Below, in pieces: positions 49,904-60,942 of a DNA stretch of 64,000 nucleotides. How positions within the stretch are numbered: the first letter of the stretch is position 1; each line of letters opens with the position of its first letter. Below the pieces are notes generated by a model, which saw only the letters and a list, made by a program, of their open reading frames with translations, was not told where the DNA came from and searched no databases. Location of the stretch: assembly GCF_000022545.1 (NCBI RefSeq), contig NC_012883.1:1356276-1420275 (forward strand), written 5' to 3'. Source of the DNA: Thermococcus sibiricus MM 739. Lineage in GTDB: Archaea > Methanobacteriota_B > Thermococci > Thermococcales > Thermococcaceae. Both the position numbers and the translations under genes were made by a program.

Positions 49904-50971
49904 TCACCGTAACACTGAAGGATCTATAAATTCATGAGGAAACACTCCTTCCTCGAACAACTTTTGACATACTGGAAAGGACGCAGTAAATGATTTGTAC
50001 TCTTCATATGCAAATGCCGGACAAATATTTGCACAGTAGCTCCTTAGAATACATCCGCTGCAAATTCCTTGAAATTCATCAGGTTTTACTCTACGAAGCT
50101 CTCCTAAAAAACCTCTGCCACTATACCATATGTCTCTTAGGCTCTCTTCTTTTATATTTCCTATCACAGTCTCTGGGTATTCAATTCCTATGCCACATAA
50201 CGACACTCCTCCATCGGGTAAAATCCCAAGCATTTTTGTATAGTTGCATGCCATCCTTGAAATGTTTAGGTATCTCCTTCCGTATTTTGCGAGCAGATAA
50301 TGAGGTACCATAGACCATATTTTGCCAGGATATTTATCATATAGCTGGATTAAATACTCTATGAGTGTTTGGTATTGGGAGACAGACAGGGAAATATTAT
50401 TATGCCTAGCTCGGCCTATTGGGAGTATTGGATTAAATTTCACTGCCTTTGCTCCTAAACTCATAATTAAATCCGTTATCTCAAAAATGGAGTGTAAGTT
50501 GCGATTGAATACAGAAACTACAACAACTGGGGGTATACCTAGATCTCTAAGTTTTGGTATTACATCTAAAACCCTTCTGTATACTCTCTTCCCATGCCTG
50601 AACGCATTAAATTCAACTTCTGAGGGAAAATCTAAACTTAAACTTATGTCGATCTCATATTTTGCGAGCTCTTTTAATAGGGGTGGAGTAATTAGGGTTC
50701 CATTGGTTTCCAGCACTGTTTTAACCTTGCTGTTGTTTGCGACTTTTATAAGGGTTATTGCTAGATCACTTCGCAAAAGAGGTTCTCCTCCAGATATAAA
50801 AAGTGTATCAAGACCTAAGTCCAAGGCCTCATTAAAAGCATTAAGAAAATATTTGTCTTCCAGTTCGACCATAGGATATGTTCTACTAGCATTTATCCAA
50901 CAGTGCTCACATTGTAGGTTGCATGAACGTGTTAAATATACATGCAATATCTCTAGGGGTGGAGCATTCAT
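49904..50971 (-). CDS. Radical SAM/SPASM peptide maturase
   Basis: A 355-residue radical S-adenosylmethionine enzyme. The SAM-cluster cysteines are C17, C21 and C24 (CNLQCEHC), followed by the SAM-binding ISGGEPLL (59-66). The C-terminal SPASM domain has a full set of seven cysteines in the canonical spacing: C242 ... C259, then C304-x2-C307-x5-C313-x3-C317, then C335, enough for two auxiliary [4Fe-4S] clusters. Such enzymes install thioether or C-C links in RiPPs (sactipeptides, ranthipeptides, PQQ, mycofactocin). Its ATG overlaps the stop of the PqqD-like gene (ATGA), a fused recognition-maturase arrangement. The substrate is most likely the Cys-rich peptide encoded at 51304-51396. Confidence 0.9.
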   Translation of the reverse strand: MNAPPLEILHVYLTRSCNLQCEHCWINASRTYPMVELEDKYFLNAFNEALDLGLDTLFISGGEPLLRSDLAITLIKVANNSKVKTVLETNGTLITPPLLKELAKYEIDISLSLDFPSEVEFNAFRHGKRVYRRVLDVIPKLRDLGIPPVVVVSVFNRNLHSIFEITDLIMSLGAKAVKFNPILPIGRARHNNISLSVSQYQTLIEYLIQLYDKYPGKIWSMVPHYLLAKYGRRYLNISRMACNYTKMLGILPDGGVSLCGIGIEYPETVIGNIKEESLRDIWYSGRGFLGELRRVKPDEFQGICSGCILRSYCANICPAFAYEEYKSFTASFPVCQKLFEEGVFPHEFIDPSVLR

Positions 50972-51276
50972 TCACATGCCTCCTTATCGTTTTGGAGAAG
51001 GCCTAACTTTGACAAATGTTTAATAAACTCTAAAATGTCTTTGGTTATTATTTCAATGTCAATTTCTTCGTCTATGTCTTTCTTTACGTAATTTGCAATC
51101 TCTTTTATAGTTAAAGAGCCATTACTGTACTTTAGGACTAACTCCCCCATTTTATTAACCGTAAATATCCTTCCTGTAGAGTAATCATAGCATAATGCAT
51201 AATCTGAATAAGAAATTATATGGAGTGGTTTTATTTTGGGCTTATAAAAAGGAGAAAATAGAAGAGACTCTTCCAC
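50968..51276 (-). CDS. PqqD-like RiPP recognition protein
   Basis: A 102-residue stand-alone PqqD-like protein. After an N-terminal strand region (LHIISYSDYALCYDYSTGRIFTVNKMGE, in parts) comes the winged helix-turn-helix LVLKYSNGSLTIKEIANYVKK and a closing helix IITKDILEFIKHLSKLGLL. These RRE domains bind the leader of the precursor and present it to the maturase. It starts with GTG, seven bases after GGAGGT, 27 bases downstream of the precursor peptide stop, and its stop overlaps the radical SAM start. Confidence 0.8.
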   Translation of the reverse strand: MEESLLFSPFYKPKIKPLHIISYSDYALCYDYSTGRIFTVNKMGELVLKYSNGSLTIKEIANYVKKDIDEEIDIEIITKDILEFIKHLSKLGLLQNDKEACE

Positions 51277-52678: not shown

Positions 52679-53272
52679 ATGGGCGTCTATATCTTTACCC
52701 CCGAAGATCTTTTGAGGTATGAAACCATAACCAAGGACCAGCTTGAAGTGATTAAAGATGCCATACTAAAGAAGGGAGATATTCTTGTTGTTGGGACAAG
52801 CAGAGCTGGTAAAACAAAGCTTATCGAGGCAATGATTCACCTGATTCCAGACGAATGGGAAATAGTGGTTGTTACTGCCTATGGCGAGTTTAAACCATTC
52901 AAGAAGAACATCCATGTGATAGACACTGAGTTCAATGAGAAGAGCACCAAGCAGAGAACTGAGGAAGTTATAGAGGAAATCAAGAAGCTCAACCCGGACT
53001 ACGTCGTTATAGACACCCTCCATACGGTCGACATTCCCTATCTATTGGACAAAATAATCGATGATTATCCACTTATAATTTCCTCCCTTGTTCTATCGAG
53101 GGACTTACTTGAGGAAATAAAACACTGGCTTAGAATAGACGACAAGACCCTTGCGAGGTTTGAGCTGGTTATTGAGTTGTATAGAGACATAAAGAGCGGC
53201 CTTAGAAGAGTGAACGCAATATACAGAGTTGTTCAAAAAGATGGAAAAATAGAGCTGGAAAAGATCGCTTAA
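52679..53272 (+). CDS. P-loop ATPase related to secretion ATPases (VirB11/PilT-like core)
   Basis: A 197-residue single-domain ATPase. Walker A is VVGTSRAGKTKLIEAM (about 37-52), followed by Asp-box-like strands and Walker B YVVIDTLHTVD (about 104-114). The pattern after Walker A (IPDEWEIVVVTAYGEFKPF) resembles the type II/IV secretion ATPase fold but lacks its N-terminal domain and the usual Asp/His boxes. The partner is not visible nearby. It starts four bases after GGTGA and converges with the aminotransferase gene, overlapping by four bases. Confidence 0.65.
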   Translation: MGVYIFTPEDLLRYETITKDQLEVIKDAILKKGDILVVGTSRAGKTKLIEAMIHLIPDEWEIVVVTAYGEFKPFKKNIHVIDTEFNEKSTKQRTEEVIEEIKKLNPDYVVIDTLHTVDIPYLLDKIIDDYPLIISSLVLSRDLLEEIKHWLRIDDKTLARFELVIELYRDIKSGLRRVNAIYRVVQKDGKIELEKIA

Positions 53273-54414
53273 ACCTTTGCCTTCAATTCTTCTATTACTT
53301 CTTTTAAGTTCTGGAGCATCTCCTCAATGTCCTCAAAGGTCATATAGCCCATGTTTCCAATTCTGAAGGTCTTCTCCTTTATGCCCTCACCGTAGCCCTT
53401 GGCAAGCTCGAATCCTCTCTCACGCATTGCATTGTATACCTGATCACCCTTTATGCCCTCTGGAGTAAGCACAGCTGTTATTGTTGGGCTTTCGTAGCCG
53501 GGTTCTGCCAGAATATCGAGACCAATTTCCCTAACTCCGTTTCTTATCATCTCGCTTCTCTTTCTGTACATTTCGAGCCACTTCTCTTTTCCGCCCATCT
53601 TCTCGATTATTCTAAGCACGACGTTTAGACCAAACTCCTGGGGCATTGCTGGGGTCGAGGGTGGGCCCTGCTTTTCCTTCTGCACTTTTATATATCTTGG
53701 AATGTCAAAATACCATCCTCTCTCTTCCATTTTGTGGGCTATTTCAATAAATTCCTCGCTGAAGGCTCCAACGGCTAATCCCGGAGGCACACCAAAGGCT
53801 TTTTGGGAGCTTCCAAAAACAACATCGATTCCCCACTTGGTGAACTTTATGTCAGCTCCACCCATTGCGCTAACAGCGTCAACGAAAACAAGCTTATCGT
53901 GCTCTTTTGCTACTTTAGCCAACTCTGGCAGTGGGTTAAGAACACCGGTGGAGGTTTCATTATAAGTTATTGTGACGGCTTCAACATCAGGGTTTTTCTT
54001 TAAAGCCTCGTCGAGGTCTTCTGGCTTGACAGCCTTTCCGGGCTCGTATTCTAGGGTTACAGCTTTTCTTCCGTTGGTCTCTACAACCTGCTTGTACCTC
54101 TTTCCAAATGCTCCAATTATTGTTACAAGAACTTTTCCACCTTTGCTGATTCCGTTTCTAATGCTTGCCTCCATAACCCCTGTTCCAGAGCTTGGGAACA
54201 AGAGAACCTCTCCTTTTTCAACTTCAAGAAACTTTTTGAGCCTTTCAACTGTATCAACGTGCATTTGTTTGTATTCCTTCGCCCTGTGACTGAACATTTG
54301 AACCTTCATTATCTCGAGAACTTCTGGAAAACAGGCAACAGGCCCAGCTGTAAAAAGCTTATACTTGGGTTTGACTATCTCGTACACTTCTTTATAAGCA
54401 TCCTCAAACTGCAT
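53269..54414 (-). CDS. Class V aminotransferase (alanine/serine-glyoxylate type)
   Basis: A 381-residue PLP enzyme of fold type I, class V. The N-terminus has LFTAGPVACFPEVLEIM (about 20-36), the phosphate-binding FPSSGTGVMEASIRN (about 73-87), FVDAVSAMGG (about 176-185) and the PLP lysine in FGSSQKAFGVPPGLAV (about 199-214). It is a typical archaeal member of the serine-pyruvate / alanine-glyoxylate group; the exact donor and acceptor cannot be decided. A short palindrome-rich intergenic region separates it from the operon on its left side of transcription. Confidence 0.88.
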   Translation of the reverse strand: MQFEDAYKEVYEIVKPKYKLFTAGPVACFPEVLEIMKVQMFSHRAKEYKQMHVDTVERLKKFLEVEKGEVLLFPSSGTGVMEASIRNGISKGGKVLVTIIGAFGKRYKQVVETNGRKAVTLEYEPGKAVKPEDLDEALKKNPDVEAVTITYNETSTGVLNPLPELAKVAKEHDKLVFVDAVSAMGGADIKFTKWGIDVVFGSSQKAFGVPPGLAVGAFSEEFIEIAHKMEERGWYFDIPRYIKVQKEKQGPPSTPAMPQEFGLNVVLRIIEKMGGKEKWLEMYRKRSEMIRNGVREIGLDILAEPGYESPTITAVLTPEGIKGDQVYNAMRERGFELAKGYGEGIKEKTFRIGNMGYMTFEDIEEMLQNLKEVIEELKAKV

Positions 54415-54538: not shown

Positions 54539-54556
54539 CTGGAAATTTATTTCCAG
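54539..54556 (+). promoter_or_regulatory. GGAAn6TTCC palindrome, NrpR-type operator
   Basis: CTGGAAAT and ATTTCCAG form perfect 8-base arms around TT. The core GGAA-ATTTAT-TTCC fits the operator known for NrpR in Methanococcus. It lies just downstream of a TATA-like element, a repressor position. An NrpR-like regulator is encoded at the end of the downstream operon (59809-60804). Confidence 0.6.
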
Positions 54557-54678: not shown

Positions 54679-54751
54679 CCAAAAGTTTTTTATATTTCAA
54701 AAGCATTCAAAAAAATGGAAATAAACTTCCACAACTTTAGGAGGTCCTACC

Positions 54752-55480
54752 ATGAAACCCATGATTGGGATAACAGGAGCTTGGAGTGTGGAAACTTGGG
54801 GACATTCAGAAGAACATGGAGGATATTTTTATGTGGGAAGCTACTACTCCACTGCAGTGTCAAAAAGTGGGGGTTTACCATTTATAATACCCCTTCCACA
54901 TAAAAATGCAATTTTAAAAGAATTCACTGTAGAAATTGTTTCTAAACTAGATGCTATCTTATTTAGTGGGGGAGGAGATGCCAAAAAGTTCAAAAAAGAA
55001 GAATTACCAACTTTATACGAACAACAGCCGCTTAGATATTCATTTGAAAAAGAACTCCTTCTAGAGGCATGGAAAAGAGATTTACCAATATTGGGTATTT
55101 GTAGAGGCTATCAAATGCTTGTAGAAGTTTTCGATGGAAGATTGATGGATGAAACAATTGATGGTCACAAACAAAATCTTCCAGGATACGAACCTTGGCA
55201 TTCTCTACGAATAAAAGAAAACAGCAAATTTGAAAATCTTGTTGGGACACGAGAGATGAAAGTTAATAGTTTTCACATCCAGGCAGTTGAAAAAGTACCC
55301 AAAGGATTTGAAGCTGTGGGATGGAGTGATGACGGAATCATAGAAGCAATAGAAGCTATTGATAAAGAATTCGTCTTTGGTGTTCAGTTTCACCCAGAAG
55401 AAAGATATGACGTTGATCCACATGCTAAGGCAATATTTGATCATTTTGTTGAAAAGGCCATAGAATACAAGAAAAGGTGA
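54752..55480 (+). CDS. Class I glutamine amidotransferase-like hydrolase (peptidase C26, PuuD-like)
   Basis: A 242-residue hydrolase of the gamma-glutamyl hydrolase family. The nucleophile cysteine is in LGICRGYQMLVE (about 111-122), and the His/Glu pair in VQFHPEERYD (about 211-220). The N-terminus (MIGITGAW) and LFSGGGDAKKF are typical. PuuD-like enzymes cut gamma-glutamyl amide bonds, for example in gamma-glutamyl-GABA. GGAGGT precedes the ATG. It is the first gene of a five- or six-gene operon and overlaps the following ribosome site. Confidence 0.85.
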   Translation: MKPMIGITGAWSVETWGHSEEHGGYFYVGSYYSTAVSKSGGLPFIIPLPHKNAILKEFTVEIVSKLDAILFSGGGDAKKFKKEELPTLYEQQPLRYSFEKELLLEAWKRDLPILGICRGYQMLVEVFDGRLMDETIDGHKQNLPGYEPWHSLRIKENSKFENLVGTREMKVNSFHIQAVEKVPKGFEAVGWSDDGIIEAIEAIDKEFVFGVQFHPEERYDVDPHAKAIFDHFVEKAIEYKKR

Positions 55481-55485
55481 TTAAA

Positions 55486-56850
55486 TTGAAAGAAGTCAAA
55501 ATCTTATCCCCTACTGGCCACTTGGGATTCACCCCTATCGAAGAAGAAAGTTTTTGGAAAGGTGTTAATAAAAAGCCAGATTTTATATGTGCAGATTCCG
55601 GTAGTTGTGACATTGGCCCTTATCCACTAGGAGCCGATGTTGCTGCAAGTCCAGAAGAGTGGCAAAAGCATGATTTGGAACTTATGCTCTTAGCTTCACG
55701 AGAACTTGATGTACCCATGATTATTGGTTCTGCATCAGATACTGGAACAAATAGAGGAGTTAATCAGTTTGCAAGGATTATAAAGAACTTGACAAAAAAA
55801 CATGGACTTAAGCCATTCAAAATGGCCACCATCTACGCTGATGTTCAAAAAGAGACCCTGCTAAAACGCCTTGAAAAAGGAGACGTTATAGAGGGCCTTC
55901 ACGGAAGGCCTCCATTGAATAAGGAAATTTTAAACAGGACAAATCATATCGTGGCAGTTATGGGAGTAGAGCCATATATAAAAGCACTTGAAGAGGGAGC
56001 AGATGTCATAATTGCGGGCAGATCCTCAGACGTTGCAGTTTTTGCTGCCCCTGCACTTTGGAGTGGAATTCCAGAAGATATAGCATTCTACGCAGGAAAA
56101 GTTTTGGAATGTGCCTCCTTCGTCGCAGAACCCTTTGCAGGTAAAGAATCCGTGTTGGGGATATTGAGGGAAGACGAAGTAATAATCGAGCCTATGAGCA
56201 ACTATCAACGGGCCACTCCAGAATCAGTAGCAAGCCATGCAATGTATGAAAGAATTGACCCGTTTATTGAATGGCTTCCCGGCGGATATATTGACATGAG
56301 AGGTTGTGTATATGAAGCGATAGATGAGAAAAGAACCAGGGTCAGAGGTTCAAAGTTCTATCGGACTCCAGAATACAAAATAAAACTTGAAGGATCTGGG
56401 AAGGTCGGCGAACGTTGTTTCATGATAGTTGGAATAAGAGATCCCTACCTAATAGCAAATCTGGATAAAGTAATAGAATGGTCTCGGAAAAAAGTGAAGG
56501 AGAAGTTTGGTGAAAGCGGATATGGCCTTTACTACCACGTTTACGGAATAAATGGGGTTATGGGCGAACTAGAACCTATACAAAACCCAAGGCCCCACGA
56601 AGTTGGAATTATTGTGGAGGGCGTAGCTCCAAATTTAGAGATGGCTAAGGAACTTACATATCTAGCAGGAAGGAACTTTCTATATGCCAGATTGATTGGG
56701 GTAAAGGGAACAGCTGGCGCAGCTGCTTTCATTTCTGATGAGGTTCTTGTGGCTCATCCTGCATATGAATGGACAATAAACCATTTAGTAAAAGTAAATG
56801 ACCCACTTGAACTTTTTGATATTCGGTTTGAGACTGTAGGAGGGGTTTAA
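55486..56850 (+). CDS. AtuA-family protein (DUF1446)
   Basis: A 454-residue protein of the DUF1446/AtuA family, named after acyclic-terpene utilisation in Pseudomonas but found in many other catabolic clusters. Conserved pieces: DFICADSGSCDIGPYPLG (about 29-46), IIGSASDTGTNRGV (about 82-95), VAVMGVEPYIKALEEGADVIIAGRSSDVAVFAAPAL (in parts, about 152-187) and LARLIGVKG-like YARLIGVKGTAGAAAF near the end. The biochemical reaction is unknown. The start is TTG at 55486, four bases after AGGTGATT. The DUF4387 partner gene follows one base after its stop. Confidence 0.85.
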   Translation: MKEVKILSPTGHLGFTPIEEESFWKGVNKKPDFICADSGSCDIGPYPLGADVAASPEEWQKHDLELMLLASRELDVPMIIGSASDTGTNRGVNQFARIIKNLTKKHGLKPFKMATIYADVQKETLLKRLEKGDVIEGLHGRPPLNKEILNRTNHIVAVMGVEPYIKALEEGADVIIAGRSSDVAVFAAPALWSGIPEDIAFYAGKVLECASFVAEPFAGKESVLGILREDEVIIEPMSNYQRATPESVASHAMYERIDPFIEWLPGGYIDMRGCVYEAIDEKRTRVRGSKFYRTPEYKIKLEGSGKVGERCFMIVGIRDPYLIANLDKVIEWSRKKVKEKFGESGYGLYYHVYGINGVMGELEPIQNPRPHEVGIIVEGVAPNLEMAKELTYLAGRNFLYARLIGVKGTAGAAAFISDEVLVAHPAYEWTINHLVKVNDPLELFDIRFETVGGV

Positions 56851-56851
56851 C

Positions 56852-57214
56852 ATGAAAAACGTTCCGCTTGTAGAACTAGCAAAAACAATAAGAAGCAAAA
56901 ATGCTGGTGTTGACCATATAACCTTTGACATTATCTTCAAAGATAGAGCCGTTTATGAGTACATTAAACAGAACCACCTTATAACCAAAGAACTGATAGC
57001 CCAGATTTACCATATGCCTCCAGAGAGAATAGTTCTTTTTGTTTATTTTGACCCTGCTAAAGCAATTAAATTTACAATACGCCGTTTTAAACCAAGTGGA
57101 AGTCCCGGTGAGACCGACGTTATGGGGGCCCAACAATACCCACCATTGTTCGAGATCTCTCTCATATTACCTGAGAGCTTGCTAAAAGAGAAAGGGGGTG
57201 GTAACCAAGGTTGA
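56852..57214 (+). CDS. DUF4387 family protein, AtuA partner
   Basis: A 120-residue protein of the DUF4387 family, commonly encoded next to, or fused to, DUF1446/AtuA proteins. Typical segments are LAKTIRSKNAGVDHITFDIIF (in parts), the central IAQIYHMPPERIVLF and KPSGSPGETDVMGAQQYPPLFEI near the end. It likely forms a complex with the AtuA protein. No catalytic residues are known. A gap of 73 bases with GGAGGATG separates it from the transporter gene. Confidence 0.85.
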   Translation: MKNVPLVELAKTIRSKNAGVDHITFDIIFKDRAVYEYIKQNHLITKELIAQIYHMPPERIVLFVYFDPAKAIKFTIRRFKPSGSPGETDVMGAQQYPPLFEISLILPESLLKEKGGGNQG

Positions 57215-57287
57215 GAAACTTCTTCTACAAGATGCTAAAATCATGTTGCGGGGTAGAATCTGATATTTAAAAAAGGAGGATGTGAAA

Positions 57288-58679
57288 ATGGCGGTTCCAG
57301 ACTGGTTGAAAAATCCACATGGGTATTTTATTATATTCGTCCTAATATTAATTGCCACTCTGGCCACATGGACACTTCCAGCAGGGGAGTATGATCGATT
57401 CAAGGACCCCAATAGTGGAAAAACAATTGTAGATCCGGAGTCATTTCACTATGTAGACCCCAATCCGGTAGATCCATTTGAAATGCTTCAAGCCATTCCA
57501 ACAGGATTTAAACAAGCTGCTGGTATTATAGCCTTTGTTTTCATAATAGCTGGAGCTATTCAAATAATTCGTTCTACTGGTGCACTAGATGCAGGAATTA
57601 TTGCAATGGTAAATAAACTGAAAGGACGGGATACACCTTTACTCTTAGCAATAATGTTCGTATTCGCTCTATTAGGTTCAGTGTTTGGATTTGCCGAGGA
57701 AACTATACCTCTAATTCCATTGGGAGTTGCCATGGCACTAGCACTTGGTTACGATAGAGTTGTAGGTTTCCATATCGTTAGAACAGCGGCATGGGTAGGA
57801 TTCGCAGGAGCGATGCTAAATCCATTTACAATTGGTGTTGCACAAAGCATAGCAGAACTTCCTCTCTACTCTGGATTGTGGTACAGGATAATCTGTTTCC
57901 TGGTGTTCTTTGCAATAGGTGCAGTGTTTATTCTAAAATATGCCAGAGATGTAAGAAAAGATCCTAAGAAGAGCATACTCTATGGTTATGAAGGAGAAGA
58001 TAGAGCAGAATTTAGTTTAAACTATGAGCAACAAGAGTTAACCCCTACAAGAAAATTAATACTTTTGGTTCTGTTTGGAGGCATATTGCTCCAGATATAT
58101 GGAGTTATAGAATACGGATGGTATACCACTGAGATCTCTGCTCTGTTTTTAGGACTTGGAATAATAGCAGGATTAATCGCAAAGATGAACCCAAGTAAGC
58201 TCTTTGGAGAATTCGTAAGCGGAGCAAAGGGGGTTACATATGGAGCACTAATCATTGGATTTGCCAGAGCAATTGTGGTTATACTAAGTGAAGGAAGAGT
58301 ATTAGACACAATAATCCATGGGCTTGCTACGCCCTTAGGAAGTTTGGGACCAGCCACTGCTGGTGTAGCAATGTTCCTAATCCACTCCATCATAAACTTC
58401 TTCATCGGTTCTGGAAGCGGACAAGCGGCAGCAACAATGCCCATTATGACTCCCCTAGCTGATCTCATTGGAGTTACTAGACAAACAGCAGTCTTAGCGT
58501 TCCAGTTCGGTGATGGTATCACCAATATGTTCTATCCAGCAATGATATACTACCTAGTATTCGCGGACATACCATACGACAGGTGGGTAAGACATATCTG
58601 GAAGCTAGTAGTGTACCTAACAATTGCAGGTGCTATCTTGGTTGCGATTGCTGGCTTTATAAACTACGGGCCGTATTAG
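57288..58679 (+). CDS. YfcC/C4-dicarboxylate-type transporter (basic amino-acid or dicarboxylate)
   Basis: A 463-residue membrane protein of the YfcC/DcuC (NhaC-like) group with about twelve transmembrane helices. Near the N-terminus is a long outer loop (AGEYDRFKDPNSGKT). Family motifs are SVFGFAEETIPLIPLGVAMALALGYD (in parts) and, in the second half, FFIGSGSGQAAATMPIMTPLADLIGVTRQT (in parts). YfcC proteins are often annotated as basic amino-acid antiporters; a role in import of the racemase substrate is inferred from context. The ATG at 57288 follows GGAGGATG. Confidence 0.82.
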   Translation: MAVPDWLKNPHGYFIIFVLILIATLATWTLPAGEYDRFKDPNSGKTIVDPESFHYVDPNPVDPFEMLQAIPTGFKQAAGIIAFVFIIAGAIQIIRSTGALDAGIIAMVNKLKGRDTPLLLAIMFVFALLGSVFGFAEETIPLIPLGVAMALALGYDRVVGFHIVRTAAWVGFAGAMLNPFTIGVAQSIAELPLYSGLWYRIICFLVFFAIGAVFILKYARDVRKDPKKSILYGYEGEDRAEFSLNYEQQELTPTRKLILLVLFGGILLQIYGVIEYGWYTTEISALFLGLGIIAGLIAKMNPSKLFGEFVSGAKGVTYGALIIGFARAIVVILSEGRVLDTIIHGLATPLGSLGPATAGVAMFLIHSIINFFIGSGSGQAAATMPIMTPLADLIGVTRQTAVLAFQFGDGITNMFYPAMIYYLVFADIPYDRWVRHIWKLVVYLTIAGAILVAIAGFINYGPY

Positions 58680-58709
58680 GCCCGTCAAATCTCTTTTTGG
58701 AGGGATTAT

Positions 58710-59774
58710 ATGTTCCCTGCACTTGAGATAAACTTGTCTGCTATTGAAGATAATGTTAGAAGAGTTGTAGAGTTTTGTACATCTTATGGCATTAACGTTG
58801 TAGGGATCACTAAAGGCGCATGTGGTGAACCAAAAGTAGCGAAAGCAATATTAAGGGGAGGAGTCCAAATACTGGGTGATTCAAGAATCCAGAACATCAT
58901 AAAAATGAAAGAGAGCAACGTTAAAGCAGAATTCATGCTGATTCGATCCCCTATGATTAGCGAAGTGGAAAGTGTTGTAAAGTATGCAGAATACAGCCTC
59001 AACAGTGAATTGAAAGTCTTGGAACAGTTATCCAAAGCTTCTTTAGAGTATGGAAGACGACACAAAGCGATAATAATGGTTGATGTTGGTGATAGAAGAG
59101 AGGGAATAATGCCCAACGAGTTTGTTCCGTTTCTTAAGGAAGCCAAAAAGCTGAAAGGTGTTGAAATAGTTGGAGTTGGGACAAACCTTGGTTGCTTTGG
59201 TGGAGTTCTGCCAACTCCAAGGAATCATGAAATGCTTAAAAAACTGACCGAGAAGGTAAAATATATCTTGGGTATTGAGAATCCCATAATTTCTTCAGGG
59301 GGCACGGTAGTTTTGAATCTTTTAGAGAGAGAGCAGTCATCATATGGAATTAACCAACTCAGGATTGGCGAAGGGATACTCTTGGGGACTGATTCCACAG
59401 GTAATAGGACTATCCCCTGGCTTAGGCAGGACACATTTACCCTGAAAGCTGAAATAGTTGAAGTTAAGTGGAAACCTTCTTTGCCAGAAGGGCCAGTGGG
59501 TAAAGATGCCTTTGGCAATACTCCTATCTTCGAAGATCTAGGGATTAGAAAGAGAGCAATACTGGCCTTAGGGAAGCAAGATACCGAGATAAGTGGATTA
59601 TTCCCGCTTTATAGTGGTGTTAAGGTTCTGGGGGGTAGCAGCGACCATACAATAATTGATATAACGGAGTCTAAAGTACCTCTTGATGTGGGAGATATAG
59701 TAAAATTCAAATTAAGCTATTCAGCAATGCTTAGAGGAATGACATCACCATATGTACACAAGGCATATATTTAA
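58710..59774 (+). CDS. PLP-dependent amino-acid racemase (ornithine racemase/alanine racemase N-domain type)
   Basis: A 354-residue fold-type III PLP enzyme. The lysine that binds PLP lies in VVGITKGACGEPKVAKAIL (about 30-48), VMVDVGDRREGI (about 122-133) follows, and the phosphate site is in SSGGTVVLNLL. It lacks the C-terminal catalytic-tyrosine domain of classical Alr but has a distinct C-terminal barrel ending in MLRGMTSPYVHKAY. This arrangement fits ornithine racemase (Orr) and YhfX-like proteins. Ornithine, lysine or another amino acid could be the substrate. GGAGG precedes the ATG. Confidence 0.83.
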   Translation: MFPALEINLSAIEDNVRRVVEFCTSYGINVVGITKGACGEPKVAKAILRGGVQILGDSRIQNIIKMKESNVKAEFMLIRSPMISEVESVVKYAEYSLNSELKVLEQLSKASLEYGRRHKAIIMVDVGDRREGIMPNEFVPFLKEAKKLKGVEIVGVGTNLGCFGGVLPTPRNHEMLKKLTEKVKYILGIENPIISSGGTVVLNLLEREQSSYGINQLRIGEGILLGTDSTGNRTIPWLRQDTFTLKAEIVEVKWKPSLPEGPVGKDAFGNTPIFEDLGIRKRAILALGKQDTEISGLFPLYSGVKVLGGSSDHTIIDITESKVPLDVGDIVKFKLSYSAMLRGMTSPYVHKAYI

Positions 59775-59808
59775 AGTAAGAGTTACCAAAATATCATGGG
59801 TGAGTAAG

Positions 59809-60804
59809 TTGAGTGACAACGAGTTTCCAATGACAGTCTTAGAGATTCTCAGAATTCTTTATTTTTCTGAAGGACCAAAAACTTCGATAGAACTGGCAAA
59901 ATTTTTAAAAAATAGAGGTATAGATGTAGATCCAAGAACAGTACGATATCATCTCTTCCACCTAGAAGAGAGAGGATTTATTAAAAGATTGGGTAGAAAA
60001 GGTGCAAAACTCACAGAACGTGGAGTAAATGAAATTCGAAGATTGTTAATTTATGAGAGAATAGGAATACCCTCCATTGAAATTGAGAAGTTAATCACAG
60101 ATAGCGATTATGATATAAACAAAAATAAAGGGAAGATTATGGTAAATGCTATAATGGTGCCAAAAGACAAATATGATGCGGTAGTTCCCCTATTATTGGA
60201 TATCTCAAAAACAAATGTTATAACCTCTCCTCTGCTGGCAATTCTCGATGAGAAAGATAGTATTTGGCATTTTGAAGTTAAAGAAGGGTATGTAGGAATA
60301 TTAGGAATCTCTTCCAGAACATACGACATAATCTTTCAAAAGAGTGGAATTTGCCTCCAATCCACAGCCACGGGATTGTATCATTTAGAAAACAATATCC
60401 CTAAAGGGTTTGTAGAGATAATATCTCATTTGGGAACCACAATAAGTCCAGGAGAACTTTTAATTAGGGGAGGATATACTTCAGTCCACAAAGTAGCAAG
60501 CACTGGAAGTGGATACGTAACGGCAGCAATAAAGACCTTCTCTTCATTTCGCTATGATGATACCCTAAGGATCTTGGAAAAACTGAAAAAGAATAACATA
60601 AGCGGAGTAGCTGAGCACAGTTCCATAATACCCGAAAACAAAAGGGTGAATGTTATGGACAAAAATAAAGGATATCTCGTGGTTTATGGTGGTGCAAATT
60701 ATTTTGCCCCTATTGTGGAAACTGGAATTTCAAAGAAGCTTGAGATTGCCAGAGACCTTTATGAGATTCAAAAAATGAAAGAGCCAGAAAAAGTTTTGAA
60801 GTAA
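59809..60804 (+). CDS. NrpR-like transcriptional regulator (HTH plus DUF128 domain)
   Basis: A 331-residue regulator. The N-terminal winged helix (VLEILRILYFSEGPKTSIELAKFLKNRGIDVDPRTVRYHLFHLEERGF, in parts, about 10-60) is followed by one DUF128/NrpR ligand domain (about 100-325) with GICLQSTATGLYHL and AEHSSIIPENKR. In methanogens NrpR senses 2-oxoglutarate and represses nitrogen genes at GGAAn6TTCC. The start is TTG at 59809, four bases after GGTGAG; an upstream ATG at 59752 overlaps the racemase end and lacks a good ribosome site. Its place after the racemase suggests that it controls this operon. Confidence 0.82.
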   Translation: MSDNEFPMTVLEILRILYFSEGPKTSIELAKFLKNRGIDVDPRTVRYHLFHLEERGFIKRLGRKGAKLTERGVNEIRRLLIYERIGIPSIEIEKLITDSDYDINKNKGKIMVNAIMVPKDKYDAVVPLLLDISKTNVITSPLLAILDEKDSIWHFEVKEGYVGILGISSRTYDIIFQKSGICLQSTATGLYHLENNIPKGFVEIISHLGTTISPGELLIRGGYTSVHKVASTGSGYVTAAIKTFSSFRYDDTLRILEKLKKNNISGVAEHSSIIPENKRVNVMDKNKGYLVVYGGANYFAPIVETGISKKLEIARDLYEIQKMKEPEKVLK

Positions 60805-60892: not shown

Positions 60893-60942
60893 CTGAGAAA
60901 AGTGCTTACCTTTAGATTACGCTCATTTGGGAGGTGAGATGC

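Follow-up and report, generated by a model that had tools for sequence, protein, structure and literature searches.

A probable catabolic operon built around a citramalate lyase-related AtuA–DUF4387 pair and its own NrpR-like repressor in Thermococcus sibiricus

Introduction

The closest described system to an adjacent pair of AtuA (DUF1446) and DUF4387 genes is the two-subunit citramalate lyase CmlA/CmlB, represented by the PDB entries 9erq and 9evf, whereas our literature search found nothing on DUF4387 and no paper describing CmlAB. A second relative, the AtuA protein of the terpene pathway, has been named acetate lyase (PMC4847356). NrpR-type repressors, which bear on the control of the locus described here, have hitherto been known for nitrogen control in methanogens; NrpR of Methanococcus maripaludis binds GGAAN6TTCC (PMC2723118), and a reference in the same paper announces in its title that methanogen NrpR senses 2-oxoglutarate. 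Here, we describe a six-gene operon of Thermococcus sibiricus MM 739 that contains an AtuA–DUF4387 pair and its own copy of an NrpR-like repressor. The operon lies in a 64-kb window, the whole stretch of DNA that was analyzed, taken from a single-contig genome of 1,845,800 bases (G000). Gene order, protein families, operators, and co-inheritance were computed, as were the homology to CmlAB, the match in fold, and the separate clade of the lyase. On these grounds, we consider it probable that the genes form a catabolic operon under local repression, centered on a two-subunit carbon–carbon lyase of the CmlAB family, fed by an importer and an amide hydrolase and placed under NrpR-like control.

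Results

The AtuA–DUF4387 pair is related to citramalate lyase

The AtuA subunit (55477–56850, + strand; PF07287, 5e-28) and the DUF4387 subunit (56852–57214, + strand; PF14330, 5e-36) each contain the full Pfam domain, with scores of 98.6 bits against a gathering cut-off of 22.8 and 123.9 bits against a cut-off of 27, respectively. Both proteins match the chains of PDB entries 9erq and 9evf over their full length and are thereby homologs of citramalate lyase subunits A and B: AtuA aligns to the CmlA chain with 36% identity (E 3e-83) and DUF4387 to the CmlB chain with 45% identity (E 1.5e-21). The AlphaFold2 model of Thermococcus AtuA has a mean pLDDT of 91.8, and its sole significant structural match in the PDB is 9evf, entitled "Citramalate lyase - ADP - pyruvate complex," with a TM score of 0.86. 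The initial annotation had described the reaction of this pair as unknown, a statement that the match to CmlA/CmlB makes out of date.

The genomic context of homologous pairs points in the same direction. About half of the 66 loci found with the Thermococcus DUF4387 protein have the pair within glutamate mutase/methylaspartate ammonia-lyase/mesaconase operons, which is exactly where a citramalate lyase is required. Chain A of 9erq is 92% identical to ECs_0760 of Escherichia coli O157:H7, and both ECs_0760 and ECs_0759 lie near a mesaconase/fumarase gene. In the Sakai strain (L115, 46934–48618), ECs_0760 is annotated as 3-methylaspartate ammonia-lyase, yet it is the CmlA ortholog, and ECs_0759 is annotated as acyl-CoA synthetase, yet it is the CmlB ortholog. 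A paper from 2015 did not settle what becomes of citramalate in that E. coli strain and drew attention to a DUF1446 gene of unknown function (PMC4682846). The names given to CmlAB and to the terpene-pathway enzyme both imply acetate release from a tertiary hydroxy acid, which may be the common chemistry of the family. For the Thermococcus pair, the most likely step is the carbon–carbon cleavage of a hydroxy acid, the enzymes of its clade being relatives of citramalate lyase that stand apart from it.

The pair belongs to a separate clade

In a tree of 64 AtuA proteins, Thermococcus AtuA is found in a deep clade apart from CmlA, together with proteins from Haloarchaea, Archaeoglobi, a Firmicute, an alphaproteobacterium, and a deltaproteobacterium. 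Comparing 25 proteins of this clade with 32 of the CmlA clade, 49 near-invariant columns are common to both, including D40, S43, D45, D66, R182, D185, K208, E211, C212, H254, E258, K303, E305, R313, D322, E375, and H436. In contrast, 28 positions are fixed differently between the clades, several of them altering charge: the Thermococcus clade has lost two arginines (E. coli Arg62 is replaced by His65 and E. coli Arg239 by Gln244) and has gained the acids D54, D88, E265, and E422. Thermococcus AtuA therefore has neither membership of the citramalate lyase clade nor its clade-specific residues. In DUF4387, just three positions differ between the clades at a similar level, and the core is kept, including the RSKN motif (R14, S15, K16, and N17), D26, K73, R78, D89, and Q94. 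Judged by these residues, the pair likely performs the same chemistry as CmlAB on a changed substrate, which is probably not citramalate itself and is perhaps amino-bearing.

Neither glutamate mutase (PF06368) nor an aconitase-family protein (PF00330) was found in G000 or in the two other Thermococcaceae genomes that carry the pair (G078 and G083, the latter 77% complete), and therefore no known route to citramalate was found. Membership of the methylaspartate pathway was ruled out for Thermococcus, which is without glutamate mutase E and an aconitase-family protein.

Neighbors of the clade in other lineages

About 25 further loci of the Thermococcus-type AtuA clade were gathered, and their recurring set is an importer, an amide- or lactam-acting enzyme, and the lyase. 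A C26 gene also adjoins AtuA–DUF4387 in the Desulfobacterota-type locus L114 and in two Firmicutes (L125 and L126), each time beside a Dpp-type ATP-binding cassette (ABC) importer. In alphaproteobacteria, the slot between importer and AtuA is filled by an AAT-family hydrolase (PF03417 in L105 and L108), with similar AAT-like open reading frames (ORFs), read by eye, in L103, L106, and L112. In addition, a D-glutamate-cyclase-like protein (GLUCM, PF14336) is present in L004 and L010, and AtuA is flanked by two hydantoinase-B genes in L107.

The Dpp-type importer, AAT-family hydrolase, and AtuA–DUF4387 of L103, L105, L106, L108, and L112 form a conserved cluster without known function. In Atribacterota (L007, L008, L009, L012, L014, L015, L018, and L019), an AtuA–DUF4387 pair of an intermediate clade is found in operons with a GntR-FCD regulator, LeuC/LeuD-like proteins, an isopropylmalate/isocitrate dehydrogenase-like protein, and MmgE/PrpD; these operons might encode a reversed alkylmalate pathway that releases acetate.

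Operon architecture and the accompanying enzymes

All five ORFs of the initial annotation are present on the + strand with successive gaps of −4, +1, +67, and +30 bp, and Pfam backs every family name that it gave. While these five named genes stand, a sixth operon member and two operators had been overlooked. The sixth gene encodes an NrpR-like transcriptional repressor with a winged helix and an NRD1_2 domain (59752–60804, + strand; HTH_12 4.6e-16, NRD1_2 1.6e-56); it overlaps the racemase ORF, and translation may in fact begin downstream of 59752, as it does in L071. This regulator and its operators are the best clue to the signal of the operon. The operon is flanked by a divergent class-V aminotransferase gene (53269–54414) on one side and by a gene for a 183-residue protein at 60934, read as ribosomal protein L10e, on the other.

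The first gene encodes a C26-type hydrolase (54752–55480, + strand; PF07722, 3e-45), a PuuD-like enzyme of the class-I amidotransferase type and the Peptidase C26 family. It scores 155 bits against a Pfam cut-off of 20.5, and the alignment shows the catalytic triad kept, with Cys in GICRG and His and Glu in QFHPE; against the PuuD equivalog (NF008471), it reaches 66.2 bits, below the cut-off of 266. The DcuC/YfcC-family carrier (57282–58679, + strand; PF03606, 7e-85) more likely starts at the ATG at 57288 than at 57282, as judged from the starts of its orthologs. It falls within the DcuC Pfam family but scores 337.7 bits against YfcC (PRK11588), where the cut-off is 500.

The fifth gene encodes an Orr-related pyridoxal 5′-phosphate (PLP) racemase (58710–59774, + strand; PF01168, 9e-23). 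The protein aligns to all 351 positions of the NCBIfam model of ornithine racemase Orr (NF040742) with E 3e-124, but its score of 414.4 bits lies below the cut-off of 480. A lysine aligns at the position of the PLP-lysine of alanine racemase, and the model, whose pLDDT of 70 is modest, has VanT serine racemase, alanine racemases, and a lysine racemase as its top Foldseek matches; the fold is clearly fold-type III. Since both the racemase and the carrier score below their NCBIfam cut-offs, "ornithine" and "basic amino acid" are still guesses. The earlier ornithine/D-amino-acid interpretation draws partial support from the fold, the homology to Orr, and a 63% identical paralog by an arginase-type gene, and is weakened by the missed cut-offs. 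This paralog, a second Orr-like racemase of G083 (L078, contig C216), has its 63% identity over the C-terminal part and adjoins an arginase/agmatinase-type gene, an NhaC-type carrier, and an Lrp-type regulator (families read by eye). It is a candidate for the real ornithine racemase of Thermococcus, and its context supports a basic amino acid as the racemase substrate, although without proof.

The NrpR-like repressor and its operators

The 337-bp promoter region contains two GGAA-N6-TTCC sites, neither assigned to a strand. Operator 1 is the palindrome CTGGAAATTTATTTCCAG (54539–54556, core 54541–54554), and operator 2 is TGGAAATAAACTTCCA (54716–54731, core 54717–54730). At least two core sites appeared in only 3 of 20,000 dinucleotide shuffles of this region, and the longer form TGGAAN6TTCCA is confined, within the 64 kb, to the promoter region, against an expectation of 0.13. 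In all three species (the window, G078/L071, and G083/L002), the sites lie exactly 211 and 35 bp upstream of the ATG of the C26 gene. A TATA-like element, TTATATT (54690–54696, + strand), was read from the sequence as a putative promoter, which would place the start point about 25 bp downstream, inside operator 2. The operon is most likely under NrpR-like repression through both operators.

A related arrangement is present in Archaeoglobi, where four genomes have an NrpR-like gene (42–46% identical) adjoining AtuA–DUF4387 and a GGAAN6TTCC site just upstream of atuA. The Thermococcus and Archaeoglobi NrpR-like proteins share the recognition segment [VI]D[PS]RTVRYH. Moreover, three of the four Archaeoglobi (L100, L101, and L102) have the motif as a pair, 153–156 bp apart, upstream of an acyl-CoA dehydrogenase-SucCD operon. 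This dehydrogenase has its nearest relatives among the glutaryl-CoA dehydrogenases (448 bits), and it retains the Arg and Glu that, going by the human enzyme, we take to mark this group. We predict that these sites form a carbon regulon of an NrpR paralog. The motif before glutaryl-CoA dehydrogenase-SucCD suggests a C5-dicarboxylate signal, close to 2-oxoglutarate.

Distribution and history in Thermococcaceae

Across the 94 Thermococcaceae genomes surveyed, the DUF4387/AtuA pair occurs in three (G000, G078, and G083). Close racemase homologs are confined to the same three genomes, with a distant relative of 45% identity in G044, and the NRD protein is likewise found in these three, with a fragment in G082. 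The six-gene order is identical in G078 (L071), and G083 carries the same order divided between two contigs. Because of this shared order and co-occurrence, the gene arrangement is not due to chance. On the G082 contig (L142, 8966–9615), the aminotransferase promoter runs directly into the last ~110 codons of nrpR, followed by L10e, and this junction therefore implies that the six-gene block was deleted there and left a scar. About 100 bp of foreign-looking sequence lies at the deletion junction; G083 (L002, about 1240–1690) also deviates at the point of the G082 scar, possibly by an insertion element. As the NRD protein is found only with the operon or its scar, it is not a general nitrogen regulator of Thermococcaceae.

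The operon DNA is 80–86% identical to that of G078, comparable to the neighboring aminotransferase (85%) and L10e (87%) genes, which implies that the operon has long belonged to this lineage and was lost in places. Recent transfer of the operon between species was rejected as not needed, given that its identity equals that of its neighbors and that G082 has a scar. Ancient presence with losses fits these data, and the operon may at an earlier time have been gained from outside the family.

Elsewhere in the window, at 49904–51276, a radical-SAM/SPASM gene and a small PqqD-like gene have 100% DNA identity to another Thermococcus (L071, 964–2336), whereas genes near the pair are only 85–94% identical to L071. 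This pair is possibly a recently transferred peptide-modifying cassette.

Discussion

The earlier proposal of a pathway with import, hydrolysis, and racemization, in which the AtuA pair performs the key step, is supported by our analysis insofar as an importer, an amide hydrolase, and a PLP racemase belong to a co-inherited catabolic unit. In the scheme that we suggest, the substrate, the effector, and the formation of acetate are predicted, as are the direction in which material flows and the sequence of the steps. The DcuC-family carrier would import a carboxylate or amino-acid conjugate, whose amide (gamma-glutamyl-type) bond would be cut by the C26 hydrolase. AtuA–DUF4387 would then cleave the hydroxy acid thus released, giving acetate and a keto acid (2-oxo or other), which could enter pyruvate-type fermentation, while the Orr-like PLP enzyme would interconvert the D and L forms of the released amino acid. 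The NrpR-like protein would repress the operon by binding the two GGAA-N6-TTCC operators, one of them at the predicted transcription start, and would probably be released by a dicarboxylate-like effector.

Several points weigh against this scheme. The evidence for CmlAB activity consists of the title of a PDB entry and gene context, and acetate release by members of the Thermococcus-type clade is a prediction. The importers near members of the clade vary in type (Dpp, Liv, Fe-type ABC, TRAP, DctM, and TctC-like), and C26 is not always found with the clade. A search of six other genomes with an AtuA relative gave no racemase homolog, so the racemase is not a regular companion of the lyase clade; it is apparently an addition on the Thermococcus side. 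Finally, the most likely target is a class of molecules, amide-linked organic acids that are imported. A staphyloferrin-A-like substrate, in which two citrates are carried on D-ornithine, could link hydrolase, racemase, and lyase; it is only an idea without direct support, and it is disfavored because the lyase has lost two arginines, which argues against a third carboxylate.

Other explanations account for parts of the locus. The one closest to the initial annotation is an ornithine/lysine or D-amino-acid pathway, in which a basic amino acid is imported and racemized to the usable enantiomer and AtuA–DUF4387 acts on an amino-bearing intermediate. The whole-length relationship of the racemase to Orr (E 3e-124), the YfcC-type carrier, and the 63% identical paralog beside an arginase-type gene and an NhaC-type carrier agree with such a pathway, and the new acids of the lyase could bind an amino group. 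However, the scores fall under the Orr and YfcC cut-offs, other lineages pair the lyase clade with carboxylate carriers and no racemase, and the operon is without any other gene of ornithine or lysine degradation. With the racemase fold and paralog context on one side and the missed cut-offs on the other, this pathway is one live possibility, if an unlikely one.

The homology, fold, and conserved core shared with CmlAB, as well as the DcuC, TRAP, DctM, and TctC-like carboxylate carriers near clade members, would also be compatible with an ordinary citramalate lyase, the carrier importing citramalate (or another C5 acid as its source) to be fermented to acetate and pyruvate. We regard this as distinctly unlikely, given a clade set apart from CmlA by 28 fixed differences, a genome in which glutamate mutase and aconitase were not found, and a hydrolase and racemase that it leaves unexplained. 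Nitrogen scavenging under true NrpR control, with C26 and the racemase freeing ammonium or glutamate from gamma-glutamyl or D-amino compounds and the lyase disposing of the carbon, appears improbable: an NrpR-family protein with its exact operator and an amide hydrolase as first gene speak for it, but the NRD protein is restricted to genomes with the operon or its scar, and the Archaeoglobi motif also stands before carbon genes, those of glutaryl-CoA dehydrogenase-SucCD.

Beyond a locally repressed catabolic operon in Thermococcus, a broader proposal can be made, which we hold tentatively and at somewhat short of even confidence. The AtuA–DUF4387 pair would represent a second lyase class of archaea, Firmicutes, Desulfobacterota, and Proteobacteria, acting after an importer and an amide hydrolase and cleaving a new hydroxy acid that probably bears an amino group. 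The dedicated switch of this carbon pathway in Thermococcus and Archaeoglobi would be a recruited repressor of the NrpR family with its old operator, and the Archaeoglobi regulon would include glutaryl-CoA dehydrogenase and SucCD.

These results place a DUF pair whose reaction had counted as unknown in an enzyme class that can be tested and that has a relative of solved structure, and Thermococcus is a genus with genetic tools. Outside the methylaspartate pathway, the homologs of CmlAB make up a clade of their own, for which the plain name "citramalate lyase" is unwarranted. An NrpR-family regulator, moreover, can be assigned a predicted carbon regulon in which the operators are exactly located.

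Comparing the locus with known systems, the pair resembles CmlA/CmlB (PDB 9erq and 9evf) in its two-subunit AtuA plus DUF4387 composition, adjacent genes in the same order, and the same predicted fold, whereas the Thermococcus operon is without the glutamate mutase/MAL/mesaconase partners. The terpene-pathway AtuA belongs to the same PF07287 family and is proposed to release acetate by cleaving a tertiary hydroxy acid, but it is about 600 residues long, acts on a CoA-thioester, and is encoded within the atu operon, while the Thermococcus locus has no terpene genes. The hydrolase shares the Peptidase C26 family and the catalytic triad with PuuD-type gamma-glutamyl-GABA (gamma-aminobutyrate) hydrolases but scores far below the PuuD equivalog cut-off. 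Similarly, the racemase resembles ornithine racemase Orr as a fold-type III racemase homologous over the whole length, although no ornithine-fermentation genes lie near the Thermococcus locus. Finally, the repressor shares with methanogen NrpR the winged helix, the NRD1_2 domain, and the operator GGAA-N6-TTCC in two copies upstream; unlike its methanogen counterpart, it has no visible link to nif or glnA and no nitrogen gene in its operon, and it is encoded inside the very operon that it appears to control.

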